This document shows, one piece after another, positions 4,180-45,355 of a stretch of 64,000 bases of DNA. Source of the stretch: Desertivirga brevis (GTDB taxonomy: Bacteria > Bacteroidota > Bacteroidia > Sphingobacteriales > Sphingobacteriaceae); contig NZ_JAFEWF010000012.1 of NCBI RefSeq assembly GCF_017355835.1, positions 145,860-209,859 of the forward strand, written 5' to 3'. Position numbers and translations under genes: made by a program. Below the pieces are notes generated by a model. That model worked only from the letters and a program-made list of their open reading frames with translations, did not search any database and was not told where the DNA came from. Positions within the stretch are counted from its first letter, which is position 1, and the number at the start of each line of letters is the position of its first letter.

Positions 4180-6234
4180 ATGAATTTAAAATACAAGTTT
4201 TTGTGTACCCTGGTACTTTGTGTACTGTGTGAGATTTCCCGCGCTCAGGTTCTTACAACAGACAGTCTTGCAAAGTTGAAACAATCCGCAGGTACTGAAA
4301 TGATATTTAATGTTTCCAACCCGGATTTTAAATTAAGTCCCTTTACTGGTATGACAAGAAAGCATTGGAAGGAGGCAGGATTATATTTATTAAGTGGTGC
4401 ATTCAGCTATATAAAGAGTATTCAGGATCCAATGAAGTTTCCGAAGCAGGAAGGCAAGAGCTATCCCCGGGATGGCAAGCCTAATGCAACAGAGAATATG
4501 GAAGGCTTATGCCGTACCATGTTCATCGCAGGCCCTTTGCTTAAAGAACATCCTGATCTGGAAATGAACGGTATTAGGATCGGCGATTATTACAGGTATC
4601 AGATAGAAAAAATGCTGATTCCGGGGAGTGATACTTACATAGAGCCTCTTGGGGCGAAAGGAGGGCCAAGTCAGAAGCTTGTTGAGTTTGGAGGACTTGC
4701 TGTCTCACTGCTCACGGCACCGGAAGTTTTTTGGAACCCCTTGCCGCAAAAAACCAAGGAAGTCCTTGCAAAAACAATGTTAAGTTATGGGGAAGGCCCA
4801 ACCATCGCCATGAACTGGCGTTATTTCAATATCATGATCCTTAGCTTCTTCAAAAGTCAGGGTTATACAGTGAAAGAGAAGTACCTCGAGGAGCTTTTGC
4901 AAAAAACGCTAAGTCAATATCAGGGGCAAGGCTGGTATCATGACAGTCCCTACTACGACTACTACAGTATGTGGGCATTTCAGATGTATGGTAAGATCTG
5001 GACGGAATACTTTGGGAACAAATATTATCCTGAATATGGAAAACGGCTTGAAGCGAATTTTGCTGAGCTTCAGGATAACTACCCCTATATGTTTTCCAGA
5101 AATGGTGAAATGATCATGTGGGGAAGAAGTATTTCCTATCGTATGGGTGCGGCGGTGCCATTTCCATTAATGGGCTTTAAAAATAACCCGGAGATTAACT
5201 ATGGTTGGATGAGACGAATTGCATCCGGCTCAATCCTTCAGTTTCTGCGAAACCCCAATTTTTTGAAGGATAGTATTCCTACCCTTGGTTTTTATGGTGC
5301 ATTTGAGCCTGCTGTTCAAACTTACAGTTGCAGGGGAAGTGTTTATTGGCTTGGCAAACTTTTCCTTGGACTTTTGGTACCAGAGAGCAGTCAGTTCTGG
5401 AAAGAAAAGGAGAATGAAGGTCCCTGGGAGAAGGAATTAGAAGAAGATAAAGTGTATAATAAGTTTGCCTCTTCATCAAATATCCTTATTACAAACTATC
5501 CATCGATAGGAGCCTCTGAGATAAGAGCATGGTGTAATAGTAAAACCGTAGGTGTTTATCAGGGGACTGAGAATTACACCCGTTTGTCGTACAATAGCGC
5601 TTTTCCCTGGCAGGCAGATGGAAAGAATGGTGAGGTATCTATGAACTATACTTTCAAAAATAGAAAAGGAGATTGGGAAGCCTTACGTGTATTTAATTTT
5701 TCCAGTTATGAAAATGGGTTTTATGTTCGTAAGGCGGTTTTGGCATCCGATACAACAGTAGGGATTGACCTGGCAGAAATGACATTACCCGGTGGAATTC
5801 TCCGGGTTGATCGTGTTAACAGTCCTGGCCCCATTAGTTTCAGGTTGGGGCACTATTCTTTACCTGCAACCAAGGGCGAGATCATCAGCAGAACAAAACG
5901 GATAAATGGAAAGAATATAAAGATCATTGATAACGGTTCTTATCAGCTTGCCATGGTCCCTCTGGCCGGTTGGCAGGATATGAGTGTTATTGAATCCTCA
6001 GGTTTGCATCCCGTCCATTCAAAGAGCTCCGTGATCAACGTTTCTAATACATTTAATGGAAAGGGAAGTGACCCAGGTATTTTTGCAAGCTTGATGTTAT
6101 GGAAGCGATCTGGTGAGAAGTGGAAGAAGGAAGAGCTACTTCCAGTTGTTAAGGTAGAAAGATCACCAGGAGTTGAAAATAAGCAAATCAGGATAACATT
6201 CCGTGATGGAAAGACCGGCCTATTGAGTTATTAA
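4180..6234 (+). CDS. Exported DUF2264 protein, probable GH154-like glycoside hydrolase
   Basis: A 684-residue protein with a signal peptide (1-22, ending SRA before Gln). The N-terminal 400 residues have the DUF2264 pattern of an (alpha/alpha) barrel. Conserved blocks include [15 protein letters not shown] (about 108-122), [13 protein letters not shown] (about 212-224) and [20 protein letters not shown] (about 251-270). The C-terminal half is beta-rich. DUF2264 proteins in Bacteroides arabinogalactan loci include beta-glucuronidases classed as GH154; I recall this link rather than prove it here. A role in removing uronic acids from pectin or arabinogalactan side chains would fit the neighbours. 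The gene is followed convergently by an AraC gene with only 27 bp between them. Confidence 0.7.
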
Positions 6235-8787: not shown

Positions 8788-11166
8788 ATGACGCTAAATA
8801 AGCATGCCCTGTACATCAATGCCCGGCTTTTTATTTTTACAATTTTGTTTGCTGTACTTGCAATGCATGTTCATGCTCCTGCAAGGGCGCAAAGCCCTGG
8901 AACGTTCACGTTGGGCAATAAGGAGTTTTTGTTGAACGGAAAGCCCTTTGTGATCCGGGCTGCCGAGCTTCACTATCCACGTATCCCTAAAGAATATTGG
9001 GAACACCGGATCCAGCTTTGTAAGGCAATGGGCATGAATACAGTGTGTATCTACCTTTTCTGGAATATTCACGAGCAGAAGCCTGATGTGTATGATTTTT
9101 CCGGGCAGAACGATGTGGCTGAATTTGTAAGACTGGTTCAGAAGAACGGAATGTATTGCATCGTTCGTCCTGGACCCTATGTATGTGCAGAGTGGGACAT
9201 GGGCGGCCTTCCCTGGTGGTTATTGAAGAAAAAAGACATCGCAGTACGCTCCATGGAGGACCCGTATTTTATAACGAGGACACAGAAATTTCTAAAGGAA
9301 GCAGCCAAGCAACTGGCACCGCTCCAGATTCAAAACGGTGGAAATATTATCATGGTGCAGGTTGAAAATGAATATGCAACTTTTGGTAGTGACGGGCGCT
9401 ATATGGAAACCATAAGGAATAGCGTCAGAAGTGCTGGATTTGACAAAGCGCAGTTATTCAGATGCGACTGGTCTTCCAATTTCAATAAGTATCAGCTGGA
9501 TGGAGTAGCTACCACACTGAATTTTGGTGCAGGATCAAATATTGATAATCAGTTTAAGAAATTTCAGGAGATCTATCCTACGGCACCTTTAATGTGTAGT
9601 GAGTATTGGACCGGCTGGTTTGACCACTGGGGAAAGCCACATGAGACACGTTCTGTAAATACCTTCATCGGGAGCCTGAAAGATATGATGGACAGAAAAA
9701 TATCCTTCAGTTTATACATGGCCCATGGGGGGACTTCTTTTGGGCAATGGGGTGGAGCAAATGCACCGCCTTATTCTGCCATGGCAACTTCTTACGATTA
9801 CAATGCTCCTGTGGGCGAGCAGGGAAACATTACGGAGAAATTTTTTGCAGTCCGGGATCTTTTGAAAAACTATTTGCAGGAAGGGGAGATTTTACCTGAT
9901 CCTCCAGCTGAGAAGCGTGTTATCACGATTCCGGAGTTTGAGTTGAACGAATCTGCTCCTTTGTTTGAAAACCTGCCGCCGGGGAAAAGAACAGAGACAA
10001 TAAGACCGATGGAAGATTTTGATCAGGGCTGGGGACGTATATTATACCGCACAACCATTGCTGCCTCAGCAGCAAAGCGTAAGATCGTGATCACAGAATT
10101 GCACGATTGGGCTTCTGTATTTATTGATGGAAAACCAATCGCGAAGCTAGACCGTCGAAGAGGAGATAATACTGTGGAAATTCCCGCTTCACAAACGAAG
10201 CTTAGGTTGGACATCCTGGTAGAAGCAACCGGAAGGGTTAATTACGGGAAGGCTATAATAGACCGTAAGGGGATTACCGAGAAGGTAGAAATAACTGAGG
10301 GATCAGGATTGAAAGAAATCAAAGACTGGACAGTTTACAATTTTCCGGTTGATTATAACTTCCAAAATAAGTACACCAGGTTCTCCTCTAGACAAGTGAC
10401 AGGACCTGCCTGGTATAGGGGAAAATTTATTCTTCGAGAAACAGGAGATACTTTTCTGGATGTTAGCACCTGGGGAAAAGGAATGGTATGGGTAAATGGA
10501 CATAATCTGGGCCGTTTTTGGAAAATAGGTCCTCAACAAACCCTGTTTGTTCCGGGTGTTTGGCTGAAGAAGGGTGAAAATGAACTATTGATCTTAGATG
10601 TAGACCAGCCTTCTTCAGCGAAAGTTGCTGGCTTAGCCAAGCCTATATTGGATAAGATAAATCCTGACGCCTCTCTTTTAAGTCGGTTTATAGGGCAGAA
10701 TTTAGATCTGTCGAACGAAGTTCCGGTGTCAAAAGGTGAGTTCGGGCCGGAAGAAGGTTGGAAAACAATCAAATTTGACAAGGCACACACAGGGCGGTTT
10801 TTTTGTTTCGAGGCGTTGAGCGCCCAGCAGGCTAATGACCCACTAACCACGGTCGCTGAACTGGAGTTAATCGGGGATGACGGAAATAACCTGGCGCCTC
10901 TTAAATGGAAAGTAGTTTATGCCGACAGTGAAGAAGTAACTGCAAGTAATAGTTCAGCTGATAAGGTGTTTGATACTCAGGAATCAACATTTTGGCAAAG
11001 TCAGTCATCAGGTGCAAAGCCATCTCATCCTCATCATCTCTTAATCGACCTGGGAGAGGTTGTCTCTGTTAGTGGGTTTAGATATTTGCCAAGGTCTGAT
11101 AAGAAGACCGGAGGCATGGTTAAAGGATACAGGATTTATTTGAAGAACGCAGCTTTTAAATTTTAA
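8788..11166 (+). CDS. Exported GH35 beta-galactosidase with C-terminal discoidin-like module
   Basis: A 792-residue protein with an N-terminal signal segment (about 1-34, ending ARA). The GH35 barrel covers about residues 38-360: RPGPYVCAEWDMGG, the acid/base Glu195 in VENEYATFG, and the nucleophile Glu272 in CSEYWTGWFDHWG. Beta-sandwich domains follow, with the conserved WGKGMVWVNGHNLGRFW jelly-roll signature. The last 125 residues resemble an F5/8 type C domain that may bind galactosides. The enzyme removes terminal beta-galactose with retention, probably in the periplasm. It precedes the first sigma/FecR/SusCD cassette, so it likely belongs to the same locus. Confidence 0.92.
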   Translation: MTLNKHALYINARLFIFTILFAVLAMHVHAPARAQSPGTFTLGNKEFLLNGKPFVIRAAELHYPRIPKEYWEHRIQLCKAMGMNTVCIYLFWNIHEQKPDVYDFSGQNDVAEFVRLVQKNGMYCIVRPGPYVCAEWDMGGLPWWLLKKKDIAVRSMEDPYFITRTQKFLKEAAKQLAPLQIQNGGNIIMVQVENEYATFGSDGRYMETIRNSVRSAGFDKAQLFRCDWSSNFNKYQLDGVATTLNFGAGSNIDNQFKKFQEIYPTAPLMCSEYWTGWFDHWGKPHETRSVNTFIGSLKDMMDRKISFSLYMAHGGTSFGQWGGANAPPYSAMATSYDYNAPVGEQGNITEKFFAVRDLLKNYLQEGEILPDPPAEKRVITIPEFELNESAPLFENLPPGKRTETIRPMEDFDQGWGRILYRTTIAASAAKRKIVITELHDWASVFIDGKPIAKLDRRRGDNTVEIPASQTKLRLDILVEATGRVNYGKAIIDRKGITEKVEITEGSGLKEIKDWTVYNFPVDYNFQNKYTRFSSRQVTGPAWYRGKFILRETGDTFLDVSTWGKGMVWVNGHNLGRFWKIGPQQTLFVPGVWLKKGENELLILDVDQPSSAKVAGLAKPILDKINPDASLLSRFIGQNLDLSNEVPVSKGEFGPEEGWKTIKFDKAHTGRFFCFEALSAQQANDPLTTVAELELIGDDGNNLAPLKWKVVYADSEEVTASNSSADKVFDTQESTFWQSQSSGAKPSHPHHLLIDLGEVVSVSGFRYLPRSDKKTGGMVKGYRIYLKNAAFKF

Positions 11167-39748: not shown

Positions 39749-40243
39749 TCATTGGTCGCCAAATTGTGTTCCTATAACACTGTTGCGGTATAGCTGAAAT
39801 TGAGGCATGAAATCAAAGTCACTATTTGCCTTATATGCAGGCTCTAATACAATGGTCCACCTAAAGTCTTCTGAAAGCTCCACCGAGCTCCAGAAGAAAA
39901 CTGCTTCCAATTCCTCTAAACTTACGTCCTGTCCTTTTTGCCGGAGGTACTGTTTCAATTGGAAAAGTAAAATGCTTTTGAGCCCTTGGTACTGCCTTGC
40001 CAATTCAACTACCTCCGACAATTGTTCTGCACTTGGACCGGATAGGCCAGATGAAAAGATCCTTAGCTCAATATCGTATTCTGCAGCTATATTATGGACC
40101 TGGCCCGACCAATAATAACGGGAACCTTCCTGGTTGAAAAACAACAGGCCGATGTCGGGAATAATTACGCTGTGACTGTATTTCCGTTTGGAAGAGGGAG
40201 CAATTGCCTTCCGTAATTTATCCCAAAGGTTTAATATCTTCAT
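39749..40243 (-). CDS. Conserved-looking hypothetical protein, TCS-linked operon gene 2
   Basis: A 164-residue soluble protein of unknown family, mixed alpha/beta, with no signal peptide or membrane helix. Its middle (FNQEGSRYYWSGQVHNIAAE) and C-terminal half (EELEAVFFWSSVELSEDFRW) suggest a compact single domain. Its ATG follows directly on the stop codon of the upstream 107-residue membrane protein gene, so the two are almost certainly translated together. The operon promoter carries the same TTAAG repeats as the divergent two-component genes, so it is probably part of that regulon. Confidence 0.65.
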   Translation of the reverse strand: MKILNLWDKLRKAIAPSSKRKYSHSVIIPDIGLLFFNQEGSRYYWSGQVHNIAAEYDIELRIFSSGLSGPSAEQLSEVVELARQYQGLKSILLFQLKQYLRQKGQDVSLEELEAVFFWSSVELSEDFRWTIVLEPAYKANSDFDFMPQFQLYRNSVIGTQFGDQ

Positions 40244-40567
40244 TTAACTCGCTTTAAGCTTCCTCACATATTGAATTAACAAGCCTCCTGCTTTTTGAAG
40301 GACTCCCAGATATTGGAAGCTTAGCTTTAAGGCAAACACTATTAAACCTAGCTCCCAATTTATAATTAGCATAACAACCAGTAGACCTAATTCGAACCAG
40401 TATAGGTATTCCATCCACAAGGGCAAGAGAGTAAAGTTCGAAGGCAGAACTCCTTTTTTAACCAGTCTTATTTGTTTTTTATCGAAAGAAACAATTGCGG
40501 TAATAATCAGGTAAATTGAAACGATGGCTAAAGAAACAAGACTAATGGTGTTATTAAAGATTAACAT
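40244..40567 (-). CDS. Small membrane protein, TCS-linked operon gene 1
   Basis: A 107-residue protein with an N-terminal transmembrane helix (about 9-27, LVSLAIVSIYLIITAIVSF) and a hydrophobic pair of helices at about 51-88 (LYWFELGLLVVMLIINWELGL, then ALKLSFQYLG). The basic C-terminus (YVRKLKAS) is likely cytoplasmic. No known family was recognised. It is divergent from the response regulator gene and shares the 258-bp intergenic region, where a TTAAG-repeat promoter faces it. Its stop codon abuts the start of the next gene. Confidence 0.7.
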   Translation of the reverse strand: MLIFNNTISLVSLAIVSIYLIITAIVSFDKKQIRLVKKGVLPSNFTLLPLWMEYLYWFELGLLVVMLIINWELGLIVFALKLSFQYLGVLQKAGGLLIQYVRKLKAS

Positions 40568-40602
40568 GTGAATTTTTGTATTTATATCCTATACACAACA
40601 TT

Positions 40603-40636
40603 CAAAGTTGAAAGCTGTACCTTAAAATTGCCTTAA
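40603..40636 (-). promoter_or_regulatory. Regulated promoter of the 107/164-residue operon
   Basis: On the minus strand two TTAAG half-sites (40636-40632 and 40625-40621) are 11 bp apart, and a CAACTTTG -7-like box (7 of 8 to TAnnTTTG) starts exactly 15 bp after the inner half-site, at 40610-40603. This is the same geometry as the three other promoters in this region. Confidence 0.65.
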
Positions 40637-40673
40637 AACTTATTGAAGAAAAGAAAGGTGCTTTTCCATGCTT

Positions 40674-40707
40674 TTAAGGTGTTTTTAAGGATTGCAGGGT
40701 ACATTTG
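40674..40707 (+). promoter_or_regulatory. Autoregulated promoter of the response regulator leader RNA and TCS operon
   Basis: TTAAG half-sites at 40674 and 40685 (11-bp step) are followed by a perfect -7 box TACATTTG at 40700-40707, 15 bp after the second half-site. OmpR/PhoB-type regulators bind head-to-tail repeats with this step, and the repeats occupy the place of the -33 element. Confidence 0.7.
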
Positions 40708-40710
40708 AAT

Positions 40711-40779
40711 GATGTTGGCTGGAGTGTTGCTGGCATCATCCATAAGTTCAGAGCCCTAGCAATAGGGCTTTGTTTTTTG
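40711..40779 (+). ncRNA. Candidate small RNA / attenuated leader of the response regulator gene (sibling 1)
   Basis: Begins a few bases after the TACATTTG box. Hairpin 1 pairs GATGTTGGC (40711-40719) with GCTGGCATC (40729-40737), including three G-T pairs. The single-stranded linker ATCCATAAGTTCAG follows, then a terminator hairpin AGCCCTA-GCAA-TAGGGCT (40752-40769) and TTTGTTTTTT. It ends 47 bp before the response regulator ATG, so it could be a free RNA, an attenuator, or both. A near copy lies at 44117-44176. Confidence 0.6.
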
Positions 40780-40825
40780 TAGGAAAGTCGTCGGGGAAAT
40801 TACATGAGATAACGCGTCAAATGCT

Positions 40826-41509
40826 ATGGTGAAAATTCTTATTCTGGAAGATGATCGAAAAATGGCTTCTGAGTTGAAGTTGTTCTTGAAAAATAATGGG
40901 TTCAATTGTGAGGTGGTTCATGATGGAGGTGTTTTTCTGAATATGGACCTGGGTAAATTTGCGTTGTATCTTTTAGATATTAACGTTCCGACGCTAAATG
41001 GAATAGAAGTTTGTAAACGTATCCGTGAAAGCAATAGTTTAAGCCCCATTCTGATGCTCACAGCTTATAGTTCTGTTTCGAATAAGGTGCAGGCACTTAA
41101 CTTTGGAGCAGATGATTATTTAGTTAAACCTTTTCATCTTGAAGAGCTTCTGGCGCGAATTAATGCCCTGCTTAGGAGATCGGCAAGAGAAGTTAAAGAG
41201 GAGGAGGATGTGATCTACACAGTAGATGACCTGGAAGTTAATATATCAGAAATGAAAGTTCAACGAGCTGGAAAGCAAATTGAATTGACACCTAAAGAGT
41301 ACAAGTTACTTGCATTGCTGGCTAAGGCGAAAGGACGCACTGTTTCTAAGCAAGTTATTTCTGAGGAGGTCTGGGATATTAACTTTGAGACAGGAACAAA
41401 CACGATTGAGGTTTATATCAACTTTCTGAGAACAAAAATCGATAAAGGCTTTAATTCCAAACTAATTCACACCCGGACAGGATATGGCTATTATTTAAAG
41501 AAGATCTAA
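40826..41509 (+). CDS. OmpR-family DNA-binding response regulator
   Basis: A 227-residue regulator. The receiver domain (about 1-118) has the full site: acidic pocket Glu8-Asp9-Asp10, phosphoacceptor Asp51, Thr79 and Lys101. The C-terminal winged helix (about 128-226) shows ELTPKEYKLLALLAKAKGRT and FLRTKIDKGFNSKLIHTRTG typical of OmpR/PhoB proteins. It is followed one base later by the sensor kinase gene. It is the natural candidate for binding the 11-bp-spaced TTAAG repeats at its own promoter and at three others nearby. Confidence 0.95.
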   Translation: MVKILILEDDRKMASELKLFLKNNGFNCEVVHDGGVFLNMDLGKFALYLLDINVPTLNGIEVCKRIRESNSLSPILMLTAYSSVSNKVQALNFGADDYLVKPFHLEELLARINALLRRSAREVKEEEDVIYTVDDLEVNISEMKVQRAGKQIELTPKEYKLLALLAKAKGRTVSKQVISEEVWDINFETGTNTIEVYINFLRTKIDKGFNSKLIHTRTGYGYYLKKI

Positions 41510-41510
41510 A

Positions 41511-42881
41511 ATGAATCTTAAACTCCGATTTTCATTAGCCTTCAGCCTTCTTTTTTCATTGCTCCTTGCAGCCTTGATGCTAACCATATACTATTTGTTC
41601 TCAAACTTCCGCCAGGAGGAATTTCGCGACAGGCTCTCAGAAAAAGCAGAAACAACAGTGAAACTTCTTGTAGAAGTAAAAGAGGTTGACTACCAATTAA
41701 TGAAAATAATTGATAGAAATAGTATCAATCGATTATACAACGAAAAGACGCTTGTATTTGATGATGAAATGAAGCTTATTTATAATAGTATAGATAATGC
41801 CAGGGTTAGTTGGACAAAAGAGGACTTGAAAAAAGTAAAGGAGGAGAATTTAACCTTTAAACGATATAAGGAATATGATGTATTAGGCATTCATTACCCC
41901 TATTACAATAAAGACTACTACGTGTTAATTTCTGCCGAAGACAAATATGGGAACAACAAACTCAGATATCTGAAATACCTTCTAGCGGTTTCATTTGTGG
42001 TCAGCGTAGTTCTTGTTTGGGTTCTCTCATTTTATTTAAGCAAAATGAGCCTTAAGCCGCTTGACAGTTTCAGGAAGGAAATTCAGGAAATTACAGACAA
42101 AAATTTAAATAAAAGATTAAGCGAGCCAACAGCCGCGGGTGAAATTCAGGCACTATCCTATTCTTTTAATCAGATGATGAATAGGATTGATTCTGCCTAT
42201 CAAAGCCAGAAATCATTTACCGGAAATGCTTCGCACGAGTTGCGAACACCTATCGCTAAAATTTTAGCACAACTGGAGAATGTTATGGGAGACAGGGATA
42301 TCTCAGCCAGTGTAAGAAATACCTTGAACAGTGTAATTGAAGATGCAACACAATTGTCGGAGATAGTGACTTCCTTATTATTACTCTCTGAAATTAATAA
42401 TAAGGGGGATTACGCAAGCTTTTCAAAAGTCAGGTTAGATGAAATTATTTTTGCTTCGTCAGCCCAGGTGGCCAAGTTTCATCCTGATTTTAAGTTTCAA
42501 TTTGAAATAGAACCGTCGTCTTCAGTTGATCTGAATTTAGAGGTGAACGCTGATGAAATACTTTTACAGATAGCTTTTGCCAATTTATTTAGGAATGCCT
42601 TTGTTTACTCAGAGAATAGAACGGTACAGTGTAAGATAAATCAGGCGGGAGGGAATTTGGAGGTAGTTATCACGAACACCGGTCCAACCCCTAAAGTTAA
42701 AGATACTTCGGAACTTTTTAACACCTTTACCCGCGGCGATAATGTAATGGAAAAAGCCGGTAGCGGTATCGGCTTAAGTATTGTAAAACGCATCTTGCAA
42801 TACCATTTTGCTATCGTTGAATATAAAACACCCACCTCAAATTTAAATGTTCTGGTAGTAACTATTCCTAATAGTATTTAA
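41511..42881 (+). CDS. Two-component sensor histidine kinase
   Basis: A 456-residue inner-membrane kinase. Transmembrane helices are at about 8-30 and 155-176, enclosing a 120-residue periplasmic sensor region with no recognised domain. HAMP is at about 177-230, the dimerisation/phosphoacceptor helix has His242 (NASHELRTPI), and the HATPase domain shows ANLFRNAFVYS (N box) and AGSGIGLSIVKRIL (G box). It is translationally coupled to the response regulator gene. The sensed signal is unknown; the OmpH-type chaperone gene in its probable regulon hints at envelope stress. Confidence 0.94.
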   Translation: MNLKLRFSLAFSLLFSLLLAALMLTIYYLFSNFRQEEFRDRLSEKAETTVKLLVEVKEVDYQLMKIIDRNSINRLYNEKTLVFDDEMKLIYNSIDNARVSWTKEDLKKVKEENLTFKRYKEYDVLGIHYPYYNKDYYVLISAEDKYGNNKLRYLKYLLAVSFVVSVVLVWVLSFYLSKMSLKPLDSFRKEIQEITDKNLNKRLSEPTAAGEIQALSYSFNQMMNRIDSAYQSQKSFTGNASHELRTPIAKILAQLENVMGDRDISASVRNTLNSVIEDATQLSEIVTSLLLLSEINNKGDYASFSKVRLDEIIFASSAQVAKFHPDFKFQFEIEPSSSVDLNLEVNADEILLQIAFANLFRNAFVYSENRTVQCKINQAGGNLEVVITNTGPTPKVKDTSELFNTFTRGDNVMEKAGSGIGLSIVKRILQYHFAIVEYKTPTSNLNVLVVTIPNSI

Positions 42882-42933
42882 GCCCATATTAAGCTCCCTT
42901 TAAGCTGATTTTAAGATCGTCAGGCAATATTTG
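42878..42933 (+). promoter_or_regulatory. Regulated promoter of the OmpH-like gene, four phased TTAAG sites
   Basis: TTAAG occurs at 42878, 42889, 42900 and 42911, an exact 11-bp step. An AATATTTG box (7 of 8 to TAnnTTTG) begins at 42926, again 15 bp after the last half-site. The first repeat overlaps the kinase stop codon. Confidence 0.75.
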
Positions 42934-42988
42934 CGTACTGATTAAGGTATGAATTACCTGGTATTCCATTTATTAATTGTTTATAAGT

Positions 42989-43540
42989 ATGCAGTATAAG
43001 ATGCTATTTCTGGTAGTCCTTTTTCATATTTCGCTTGCTGGCTTTTCTAAAGCGTTTGCTCAGCAAAAGCTTGGTTATATAGATTCTGAGGCACTATTGA
43101 TAGCATTACCTGAATTTAAGGCAGCGGAAGCTGCATTCGAGAAGTTTCAAAAACAGAAGCAATCGGAGTTGGAGGGTATGGATAAGAACCTAAGTTCAAG
43201 GATTTCGCAATATGAAGGGAAGTATCGAAATTTAAGTGAAGCTAACCGGGAGGTGCTTGAAAAAGAATTGAAAGCTCTGGCTGCAGAGATTGAGAATTTA
43301 AAGGAAAAGCTTGAAGAGACCTCGCTTAAATCGCAAGAGGACCTCGCTTCACAGCAGGAGAAACTATACGCTCCGGTTTTAGAAAAAGCACAACTTGCTA
43401 TTAAAGCTCTTGCTAAGGAAAAAGGATATTCTTATGTTCTGGACGTTTCACAACCTGGTTTACTCTTTTTCCAAGGTGAGGATCTTACTCCAGCCGTAAA
43501 AGAGAAATTAATTACGAATTCTGGTACTGCAAAAAAGTAG
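42989..43540 (+). CDS. OmpH/Skp-family periplasmic chaperone
   Basis: A 183-residue protein starting at the ATG at 42989 (an in-frame TTG lies 12 bp earlier). The signal peptide is at about 1-25 (SKAFAQ). It then begins KLGYIDSEALLIALPEFKAA, the classic OmpH start, followed by a long charged coiled coil (about 50-120, with KELKALAAEIENLKEKLEET) and the C-terminal ALAKEKGYSYVLD strand. Skp-type trimers escort unfolded outer-membrane proteins across the periplasm. It lies directly behind the kinase gene but has its own four-site promoter. Confidence 0.92.
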   Translation: MQYKMLFLVVLFHISLAGFSKAFAQQKLGYIDSEALLIALPEFKAAEAAFEKFQKQKQSELEGMDKNLSSRISQYEGKYRNLSEANREVLEKELKALAAEIENLKEKLEETSLKSQEDLASQQEKLYAPVLEKAQLAIKALAKEKGYSYVLDVSQPGLLFFQGEDLTPAVKEKLITNSGTAKK

Positions 43541-43665
43541 CAGATACGGGATTATAAGGCAAGTATTTTAGGGGCCTGAAAACGAAAACAAGTCATGGAA
43601 TTCGGCGACAGGCAGAACCAGTAATGATTGTTGTATAGTGAAAGATTAAATACTTGGTTATCCAG

Positions 43666-44031
43666 ATGAGTTCTAAAGTTCTAGTACAAGAGGGAGATAA
43701 GGATGTTGGCGAACTAATAAAAGTGATCTTAGAAAGCGCAGGGCATCAGGTAGTGTTGCTACGTAATGTGGAGAACTTACTTCAGGTGGCATCAAGATAT
43801 TCGCCAGATCTTATTATTATAGACCATGTTTTACGCGATGATCCTATTTTAGACCTTTGTAATCAGGCCAGATTTAATCAGGCAACCGCAAGAACTCCAA
43901 TTCTGATCACCTCAACCAGTCCTCGCGCTAAAGAACTTTTGTCTATTTCTAAGGCTGATGATTTACTCGAGAAGCCGTTTGACATCGGTGTTCTTGTCGA
44001 AAAAGTATCAAATTGCATTTCTTGCAAGTAA
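43666..44031 (+). CDS. Stand-alone response regulator receiver protein
   Basis: A 121-residue single receiver domain, started at ATG 43666 rather than at the in-frame TTG at 43654. It has acidic residues in VQEGDKD, the phosphoacceptor Asp in LIIIDHVLRDD, a Thr/Ser pair in ITSTSPR, and Lys in LEKPFD. There is no output domain, so it should act through protein contacts or as a phosphate sink, possibly for the neighbouring kinase. The start of the usual DD pair is altered to EGD, but phosphorylation still seems possible. Confidence 0.85.
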   Translation: MSSKVLVQEGDKDVGELIKVILESAGHQVVLLRNVENLLQVASRYSPDLIIIDHVLRDDPILDLCNQARFNQATARTPILITSTSPRAKELLSISKADDLLEKPFDIGVLVEKVSNCISCK

Positions 44032-44079
44032 AATGAAGTGGGGGGATATGCCATGAAATAGGCTACCAAGCAATCGGTT

Positions 44080-44113
44080 TTAAGCCTTTTTTAATCCCCA
44101 TGTTTTTATTTTG
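44080..44113 (+). promoter_or_regulatory. Regulated promoter of the second small RNA
   Basis: TTAAG at 44080 and a near site TTAAT at 44091 (11-bp step) precede TTATTTTG at 44106-44113 (7 of 8 to TAnnTTTG), again starting 15 bp after the second half-site. Confidence 0.5.
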
Positions 44114-44116
44114 TTC

Positions 44117-44176
44117 GTATCAGTTTTCCCAACTGAAATCCATCATAAGTTAAAGCCCTAGTAATAGGGCTTTATT
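44117..44176 (+). ncRNA. Candidate small RNA (sibling 2)
   Basis: Hairpin 1 is CAGTT-TTCCC-AACTG (44121-44135). The linker AAATCCATCATAAGTT follows, then hairpin AAAGCCCTA-GTAA-TAGGGCTTT (44152-44173) and a short T-rich tail. The linker differs from sibling 1 mainly by a CAT insertion, and the terminator stem and GNRA-type loop are nearly the same. An alternative is a plain terminator of the receiver gene that ends at 44031. Confidence 0.5.
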
Positions 44177-44334
44177 CCTGCCTATAATACGAAATCTTTG
44201 AACCTGGCATCTCAAATAATGTCTCTCTTCATCATGGTAAGTTAATGCTACAAAGCGGTATGGGCATGGATACTAAGGTGAGTTATTTTGGTTACTTAAA
44301 ATAAAGTAGTTACTCTGTGTCAAGCAGAATTACC

Positions 44335-44342
44335 TAAATTTG
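44335..44342 (+). promoter_or_regulatory. Candidate -7 box TAAATTTG for the pectinesterase gene
   Basis: An exact TAnnTTTG match 35 bp before the ATG. There is no clear TTG at -33, which may mean an activator is needed. Confidence 0.45.
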
Positions 44343-44377
44343 ACACCCATATTTAACTACACATTCACACTTAGAAT

Positions 44378-45355
44378 ATGATACGGAACAAAAGTAAGAC
44401 TTTAGTAAGTTGCCTTATAACTTGTTTGCTGTTGTGCCTCAGCTCACTCCCCCTGTTTGCGAAAAAGAAGCAGATTGTAGTTGCTCTGGACGGTAGCGGC
44501 GACTTTAAGACAGTAAGTGCAGCGATCAATTCAGTTCCTGATAATAATAGTTCAACTATAGTTATCTACATAAAGAACGGTATTTATAAGGAGAAGCTCA
44601 CGATCCCAAAACTGAAAACGAATATAGCCCTGGTGGGCGAAGATGTAAATAAAACTATTTTAACCTACGACGATTACGCATCAAAGAAAGACAAAGCGGG
44701 AAAGGACATTGGTACCTCACGATCAGCAAGCGTCTTTGTGCTTTGTAATGATTTCGTGGCAGAAAACATCACTTTTGAAAATTCTTCAGGTCCTGTTGGA
44801 CAAGCCCTCGCAATGTCAGTGGGTGGAGATAAAGTCTTTTTCAAAAACTGCAGATTCCTGGGTTTTCAGGATACAATTTATACTTCAGGAGGAAATACCC
44901 GCCAGTACTTCTACAAATGCTATATTGAAGGAACCGTCGATTTTATATTTGGTGCAGCAATAGCCGTTTTCGATGAATGTGAAATCTTCTGCAAACGCAG
45001 TGGGTACATTACCGCTGCCTCAACGCCGGAGGGGCAGAAGTTTGGGTACGTGTTTAGGGAATGCAAAATTACCGGAAGCGCTCCAGACAATTCATTCTTC
45101 CTTGGTCGTCCATGGAGGCCTTATGCCAGGGTGGTCTTTCTGAAATGTGACCTTCCTGCCTTAATTAAGGCTGAAGGATGGGACAACTGGCGAAAGGAAA
45201 GTAACGAACAAACTGCCTTTTATGCAGAATATAAAAACAAGGGGAAAGGCTTTCAACCCAATAAGCGAGTGAAATGGTCTAAGCAGTTAACAAAGGAAGA
45301 GGCTAAAGAATATTCAACAACAAATATTTTTGGAGGATGGAATCCTCGGCAATAG
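44378..45355 (+). CDS. Exported pectinesterase (CE8 pectin methylesterase)
   Basis: A 325-residue protein with a signal peptide (about 1-28, LPLFAKK). The right-handed parallel beta-helix of CE8 is clear: SGPVGQALA (Gln142), GFQDTIYT (Gln164, Asp165), the nucleophile region GTVDFIFGAA (Asp188) and LGRPWRPYA (Arg244, Trp246). It removes methyl groups from homogalacturonan so that lyases and hydrolases can act. It heads a plus-strand group with two SGNH acetylesterases and a SusC/SusD pair. No pectate lyase gene is in the window. Confidence 0.94.
   Translation: MIRNKSKTLVSCLITCLLLCLSSLPLFAKKKQIVVALDGSGDFKTVSAAINSVPDNNSSTIVIYIKNGIYKEKLTIPKLKTNIALVGEDVNKTILTYDDYASKKDKAGKDIGTSRSASVFVLCNDFVAENITFENSSGPVGQALAMSVGGDKVFFKNCRFLGFQDTIYTSGGNTRQYFYKCYIEGTVDFIFGAAIAVFDECEIFCKRSGYITAASTPEGQKFGYVFRECKITGSAPDNSFFLGRPWRPYARVVFLKCDLPALIKAEGWDNWRKESNEQTAFYAEYKNKGKGFQPNKRVKWSKQLTKEEAKEYSTTNIFGGWNPRQ

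Follow-up and report, generated by a model that had tools for sequence, protein, structure and literature searches.

Two similar short units at the ends of a two-component locus in Desertivirga brevis: candidate sibling small RNAs behind a common promoter design

A stretch of 64,000 nucleotides from Desertivirga brevis (contig NZ_JAFEWF010000012.1, positions 145,860 to 209,859; hereafter the window, whose numbering is used unless another genome is named) carries a two-component locus with a short unit of one plan at either end, unit A (40711-40779) and unit B (44118-44176), both on the forward strand. We propose, with a probability of about 0.58, that the two units are sibling small RNAs belonging to the two-component system that they flank, activated by its response regulator and acting in trans. 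The promoter design, the plan of the units and the conservation of the A linker are established at the level of sequence, and we regard the module as real and unusual. A and B are likely to be short, regulator-driven, terminator-ended RNAs, and that they are trans-acting siblings seems a somewhat better than even bet, while the pairing of their linker over start codons, put forward in a first-pass annotation of this DNA, is unsupported by the target tests. Desertivirga we take to be a genus of Bacteroidota.

The first-pass annotation had placed two units of one plan at 40711-40779 and 44117-44176, and both could be located. Each comprises a 5' hairpin, a linker ATCCAT(CAT)AAGTT, which contains CAU, and a terminator AGCCCTA-GNAA-TAGGGCT. 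In A (predicted length ~69 nt, the start being placed from the -7 element of its promoter) the 5' hairpin (40711-40737) has 9 bp, or 11 bp (40709-40739) with two extra 5' bases; it is followed by the linker ATCCATAAGTT (40738-40748), a candidate seed or protein-binding stretch common to B, and by an intrinsic terminator (40749-40779) composed of the hairpin CAGAGCCCTA-GCAA-TAGGGCTTTG (40749-40772) and a T-rich tail. In B (predicted ~59 nt, with an equally provisional start) a 5' hairpin of 6 bp (44120-44136) precedes the linker ATCCATCATAAGTT (44138-44151) and the terminator hairpin TAAAGCCCTA-GTAA-TAGGGCTTTA (44151-44174). The two 5' hairpins are paired and unrelated in sequence, as annotated. 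The Smith-Waterman score of A against B is 27, which none of 1000 pairs of dinucleotide shuffles reached (mean 7.1, maximum 14), and among 70-mers taken from both strands at steps of 10 bases, the best one elsewhere in the window scores 17 against A. The terminators form a 23-nt repeat at 91%; with them removed, what remains is a shared run of 8, attained in 85 of 5000 shuffle pairs, and a score of 10, attained in 3 of 1000, a similarity above chance and weaker than that with the terminators. The folding z-scores are -4.25 for A and -6.45 for B. No match to Rfam 15 attains the gathering score anywhere in the window, and the seven weak matches in 40500-44400 are all below it.

A regulated promoter before each unit had also been proposed, and a common design was found at both: TTTAAG-N5-TTTAAG-N10-nAnnTTTG, a direct repeat with an 11-bp period joined to the Bacteroidota -7 element, given as TAnnTTTG in the excerpted text of PMC7366714. 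Three perfect copies and one with 2 mismatches lie at the locus, within ~3.5 kb of one another. The copy of A (40673-40707, forward strand; -7 element TACATTTG at 40700-40707) has no mismatch, and that of B (44079-44113, forward strand) departs from the design at the last G of the second repeat and at the A of the -7 element. The other two, additional to those in the first-pass annotation and both perfect, lie before a divergent pair of genes (40603-40637, reverse strand) and before an OmpH-like gene (42899-42933, forward strand). Altogether, the window contains 5 matches with at most 3 mismatches, as many as in 1 of 100 shuffles; since the shuffles average 0.94, the fifth (3 mismatches, 41488-41522, reverse strand), which overlaps the junction of the regulator and kinase genes, is probably due to chance. 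The whole genome of Desertivirga arenae, the closest relative in which a scan of genome contigs with the kinase found the locus (kinase 73% identical; region L001), has two perfect copies, before the divergent gene (L001:5083, reverse strand) and before A (L001:5119), and 10 further places with 2 mismatches, compared with 6 in the reversed control. Among 399 genomes of the family the perfect design occurs 5 times, versus 4 in the reversed control; three of the occurrences are at the kinase locus (two in D. arenae, one behind the kinase homologue of G258), and the others are in G343 and G189. We also observed that the sequence before the OmpH-like gene contains four consecutive TTAAG repeats at 11-bp spacing (42878-42915).

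The linker ATCCATAAGTT, the longest run common to unit A of the window and that of D. arenae, is retained in D. arenae as an unbroken 11-base match (L001:5186-5196) while the neighboring sequence has diverged, in agreement with the first-pass claim that it is conserved. Counted over window positions and ignoring D. arenae insertions, the identities are 26/35 for the A promoter, 23/35 for the divergent promoter and 11/35 between the two; within A they are 13/29 for the 5' arm (40708-40736), 12/12 for the linker (spanning a 2-base insertion in D. arenae), 18/24 for the terminator hairpin and 5/7 for the T tail, and 13/46 for the stretch behind the terminator. One stem pair of the A terminator, A-T in the window, is G-C in D. 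arenae, with both sides changed. Conservation in two species is suggestive of selection and on its own modest evidence; the presence of the linker in B as well strengthens it. The first-pass view that coding genes do not explain the repeat stood up to inspection by eye. A does contain an ATG frame of 16 codons (from 40709), which could make it a small mRNA or a leader peptide; however, the ATG frame before the D. arenae terminator has 6 codons and is dissimilar, and in B no ATG precedes the terminator. As no conserved frame was seen, a coding explanation of the two units was rejected, and we consider the peptide highly improbable.

Searches for further members of the family extended to A of D. 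arenae and ended there: the linker-terminator combination was found by pattern and model searches in the window and D. arenae only, and B in the window only. A linker-plus-terminator pattern matched 14 places in 13 of 301 genomes, versus 29 by our count in the reversed control, so the matches outside D. arenae are attributed to chance; a box-plus-linker pattern matched 3 places in 400 genomes of the order, versus 8 by our count in the control (the places in G184 and G416 are known from the matched text alone). A model (R1) built from three sequences, the D. arenae copy among them, identified in 8 genomes only that copy as a strong match (E-value 9.7e-10). In 6 of the 8 genomes, including D. 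arenae, 150 out of a larger set of first-look candidates were scored, so weak siblings could be missed. The next match (D. arenae, E-value 0.038) is a plain gene terminator; such terminators are ordinary in the genomes searched, which would suit a reading of the short units as mainly spacers, i.e. ordinary terminators behind regulator-bound promoters whose boxes titrate the regulator or insulate the neighboring genes. A spacer would not need a linker, though, and that of A is kept unbroken over 11 bases in D. arenae amid divergence and recurs in B. For A, ordinary terminators lacking a conserved linker, which the first-pass annotation had named as the outcome that would speak against it, are not what we found, and we regard the spacer explanation as improbable.

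The main alternative, rather unlikely although less so than the spacers, is that A is a cis-acting leader attenuator, which would limit the autoregulation of regulator and kinase by early termination; its linker would be a site for a protein or a signal, and B a displaced copy. In both species A does stand immediately 5' of the regulator gene (T tail to ATG, 46 nt in the window and 31 nt in D. arenae), and the poorly conserved stretch between its terminator and the ATG contains, by eye, no good -7 element, hence expression of the regulator may depend on read-through. However, folding of three sequences, to which no dedicated search was added, showed no alternative antiterminator structure, and the conserved part is the linker rather than a pairing partner of the terminator, the 5' arm being poorly conserved. 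In addition, B carries the same module without being followed by a regulator gene, and the gene downstream of B, for a pectinesterase, has, by eye, a -7-like element of its own (TAAATTTG, 44335-44342); a leader role is therefore not a ready explanation of B.

The regulator (40826-41509, forward strand) is a member of the OmpR family with Response_reg and Trans_reg_C domains, and the sensor histidine kinase (41511-42881, forward strand) has HAMP, HisKA and HATPase_c domains. The scan of contigs with the kinase yielded two loci, so homologues were drawn from the 399 family genomes, of which 18 contain a kinase match at E ≤ 1e-85, in 19 places, one of them the D. arenae locus itself. Thirteen regions were compared, 12 from other genomes (~50-58% identity) and a second kinase locus of D. 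arenae (45%); 5 kinase places of 34-35% identity were left out. The design with at most 3 mismatches is found behind the kinase in 7 of the 13 (L064, L065, L067, L068, L071, L072 and L073) and is absent at that threshold from the same position in L066, L069, L070, L074, L075 and L076. This recurrence links the box with the regulator. Among 16 regulators, the C-terminal stretch that holds the presumed recognition helix (TIEVYINFLRTKI in the window) is nearly invariant, and it is similar to the helix VVEVYVSKVRKKL of CiaR, as quoted in the excerpted text of PMC3091779; both features support the view that the regulator reads TTTAAG-N5-TTTAAG boxes, to which it would bind. The 25 best NCBIfam models for regulator and kinase include neither CiaR nor CiaH, and all stay below their cut-offs; the best of them for the kinase is of the heavy-metal type.

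Upstream of the regulator the relatives differ from the two Desertivirga species. In the 400 bases before the gene, CATAAGTT occurs on the sense strand in none of the 13 homologous regions and is present in D. arenae L001; likewise, no box in that stretch comes closer than 3 mismatches in any of the 13, whereas L001 has a close one. Only the window and D. arenae thus appear to have the small-RNA arrangement upstream of the regulator. The second D. arenae kinase (G001:C39:347377-348723) has its own regulator, before which the best box has 3 mismatches and lies on the other strand. In relatives, the regulator looks like one of efflux genes: among five proteins behind boxes compared with Pfam, those of L064 and L002 match outer membrane efflux proteins (OEP), those of L065 and L071 match small multidrug transporters, and that of L073 has no match. 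The boxes before efflux genes in L064, L065 and L071 hint at the signal of the kinase. L002, next to D. arenae in the contig scan (kinase 56% identical), belongs to a metagenome-assembled genome recorded as Williamsia sp.; going by its name, we presume this to be an actinobacterium, and as its two-component locus is close to that of the window, the genome may be mislabeled. Near its regulator no close box was found; its outer membrane efflux gene stands behind an array of four TTAAG repeats with a 1-mismatch design (10990-11046), ~5 kb away from the kinase. In G217, a 1-mismatch design right behind the kinase is followed ~100 nt on by a strong terminator (L067:4539-4707), and the longest ATG frame starting between the two has 36 codons. 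This stretch could possibly encode another small RNA, one unlike A and B in sequence, or form the leader of a 165-aa open reading frame at 4804.

The closest likeness we found is to the csRNAs (cia-dependent small RNAs) of streptococci. According to the excerpted text of the survey (PMC3091779), it comprises 61 candidate genes of 51-202 nt, with two stem-loops in 32, the terminator alone in 16 and more complex structures in 13, and with CAU in the anti-start region of 53 of the 61. As at the locus of A and B, an OmpR/PhoB-type regulator goes with TTTAAG-N5-TTTAAG repeats placed 10 nt from the core promoter element and with several similar, short, terminator-ended RNAs, about half of which have two stem-loops and most of which have CAU (same excerpt). 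The passages available from two other papers state that csRNAs, termed sibling sRNAs, repress comC additively (PMC4507080), and that replacement of the second repeat strongly lowered one csRNA promoter of Streptococcus agalactiae (PMC9603419). Compared with the features of csRNAs, A has the promoter with no mismatch in both the window and D. arenae, and B has it with 2; both units, by their predicted lengths, fit an intergenic promoter followed by a terminator within 51-202 nt, and both have two stem-loops separated by a similar unpaired region, that of A being partly paired in the model. Unlike the csRNAs, A and B belong to another phylum, are neither streptococcal nor under CiaRH control, have the core promoter nAnnTTTG rather than TATAAT, are only two in number (B being known from the window only), and contain no anti-Shine-Dalgarno stretch that we could see, and A lies within the regulator's own leader. 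On this comparison we take the module to work like the csRNA system and not to be a member of the csRNA family.

Within Bacteroidota, the FopS small RNAs of Bacteroides, consisting of a seed and a terminator, bind and repress a susC mRNA, as stated in the excerpted text of PMC11697453. FopS and GibS of Bacteroides thetaiotaomicron resemble A and B as paralogous RNAs (~65-70 nt for FopS) with an unpaired seed 5' of the terminator, and they repress by targeting mRNA 5' regions; in contrast, the FopS seed is at the 5' end with no hairpin before it, there are 14 copies, and that excerpt describes no two-component control. The csRNA and FopS precedents lead us to favor trans-acting small RNAs. The PmrA box (excerpted text of PMC3973317), likewise read by an OmpR/PhoB regulator, has half-sites CTTAAG and NTTAAT 5 bp apart, the latter resembling the second repeat of B; unlike the boxes of A and B, it belongs to a protein-coding promoter (pbgP), and no sibling small RNA is mentioned in the excerpt. 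Literature searches, judged by titles and abstract openings, turned up no Bacteroidota two-component system acting through sibling small RNAs.

Several observations weigh against sibling RNAs that act in trans. The annotation had suggested that the complement of the linker could span start codons; exact AACTTATGGAT occurs at 11 places in the D. arenae genome, versus 8 in the reversed control, and on our reading none of the 10 non-self sites is at a gene start codon. At 535 crude gene starts in 800 kb of D. arenae, 73% of 60 shuffled linkers attain the RNAduplex minimum of -14.1, and the mean energy is lower with 90% of them, so this part of the annotation finds no support in tests that cover one relative with crude start calls and that short seeds could escape. 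At 43 starts in the window, the minimum is reached by 26% (A) and 10% (B) of 100 shuffles; the mean energy of the B linker is low (2% of shuffles), which, with so few starts and several tests, we do not count as evidence. Hfq was not detected in any of 3 genomes of the genus, including D. arenae, by a search that was positive in 5 of 14 controls. D. arenae has three RRM matches; RbpB, the partner of FopS, is an RRM protein.

The units themselves supply further counterarguments. The linker, annotated as unpaired, is predicted to be so in B (0.76 or more, except for the final base, a part of the stem), but in A the CATAAG part is unpaired at only 0.23-0.68 in silico; the minimum-energy fold, unlike the centroid, pairs it with the T tail, and the D. 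arenae linker has mixed predicted pairing. For an 11-base run at 50% background and ~40 positions, the rough chance is 0.02, which is why conservation in two species counts as modest. Unit B was not found in D. arenae, where the best box behind the kinase in L001 has 6 mismatches; known from the window only, B also has the weaker promoter of the two units, and its T tail (TTTATTCC) is poor. The last base of its second repeat is T, and because the excerpted survey text (PMC3091779) discards mismatches at this G position, B would fail the csRNA rule. Finally, A ends in the leader of the regulator gene, and given this position it may act in cis, or both ways.

As for the surrounding genes, the OmpH-like gene (ATG at 42989, forward strand) lies 3' of the kinase, behind its promoter element, and is followed by a gene for a lone receiver-domain protein and by the pectinesterase gene. 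On the other side of the regulator, the divergent pair (39749-40567, reverse strand) encodes proteins of 107 and 164 aa behind a common box-controlled promoter region. Neither protein matches Pfam or NCBIfam, and the database matches of the 107-aa protein are two only, the protein of the window itself, at 100% identity, and a D. arenae protein.

If A and B are trans-acting siblings, an active kinase would lead the phosphorylated response regulator to bind the TTTAAG-N5-TTTAAG boxes and to activate four promoters, those of the divergent 107- and 164-aa genes, unit A, the OmpH-like gene and unit B. The A and B transcripts (~60-70 nt) would stop at their terminators, with the common linker as the working part, most likely pairing with target mRNAs near the translation start and lowering their output; the activator would thereby gain a repressing arm. 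Some transcripts may continue past the A terminator and take in the regulator and kinase genes, which would provide autoregulation. We speculate, tentatively and at somewhat less than even odds, that this is a csRNA-type circuit in a Bacteroidota lineage with no detected Hfq, in which a regulator of TTTAAG-N5-TTTAAG boxes drives sibling RNAs, one of them arising by termination in the regulator's own leader, so that a single event would set the levels of both regulator and small RNA; the likeness to streptococci could stem from convergence or from an old DNA-binding preference of the regulator group. If true, the locus would represent a compact regulon of about four promoters, with D. arenae as a whole-genome-sequenced relative, and would offer a striking case of one promoter grammar and RNA plan in distant phyla.

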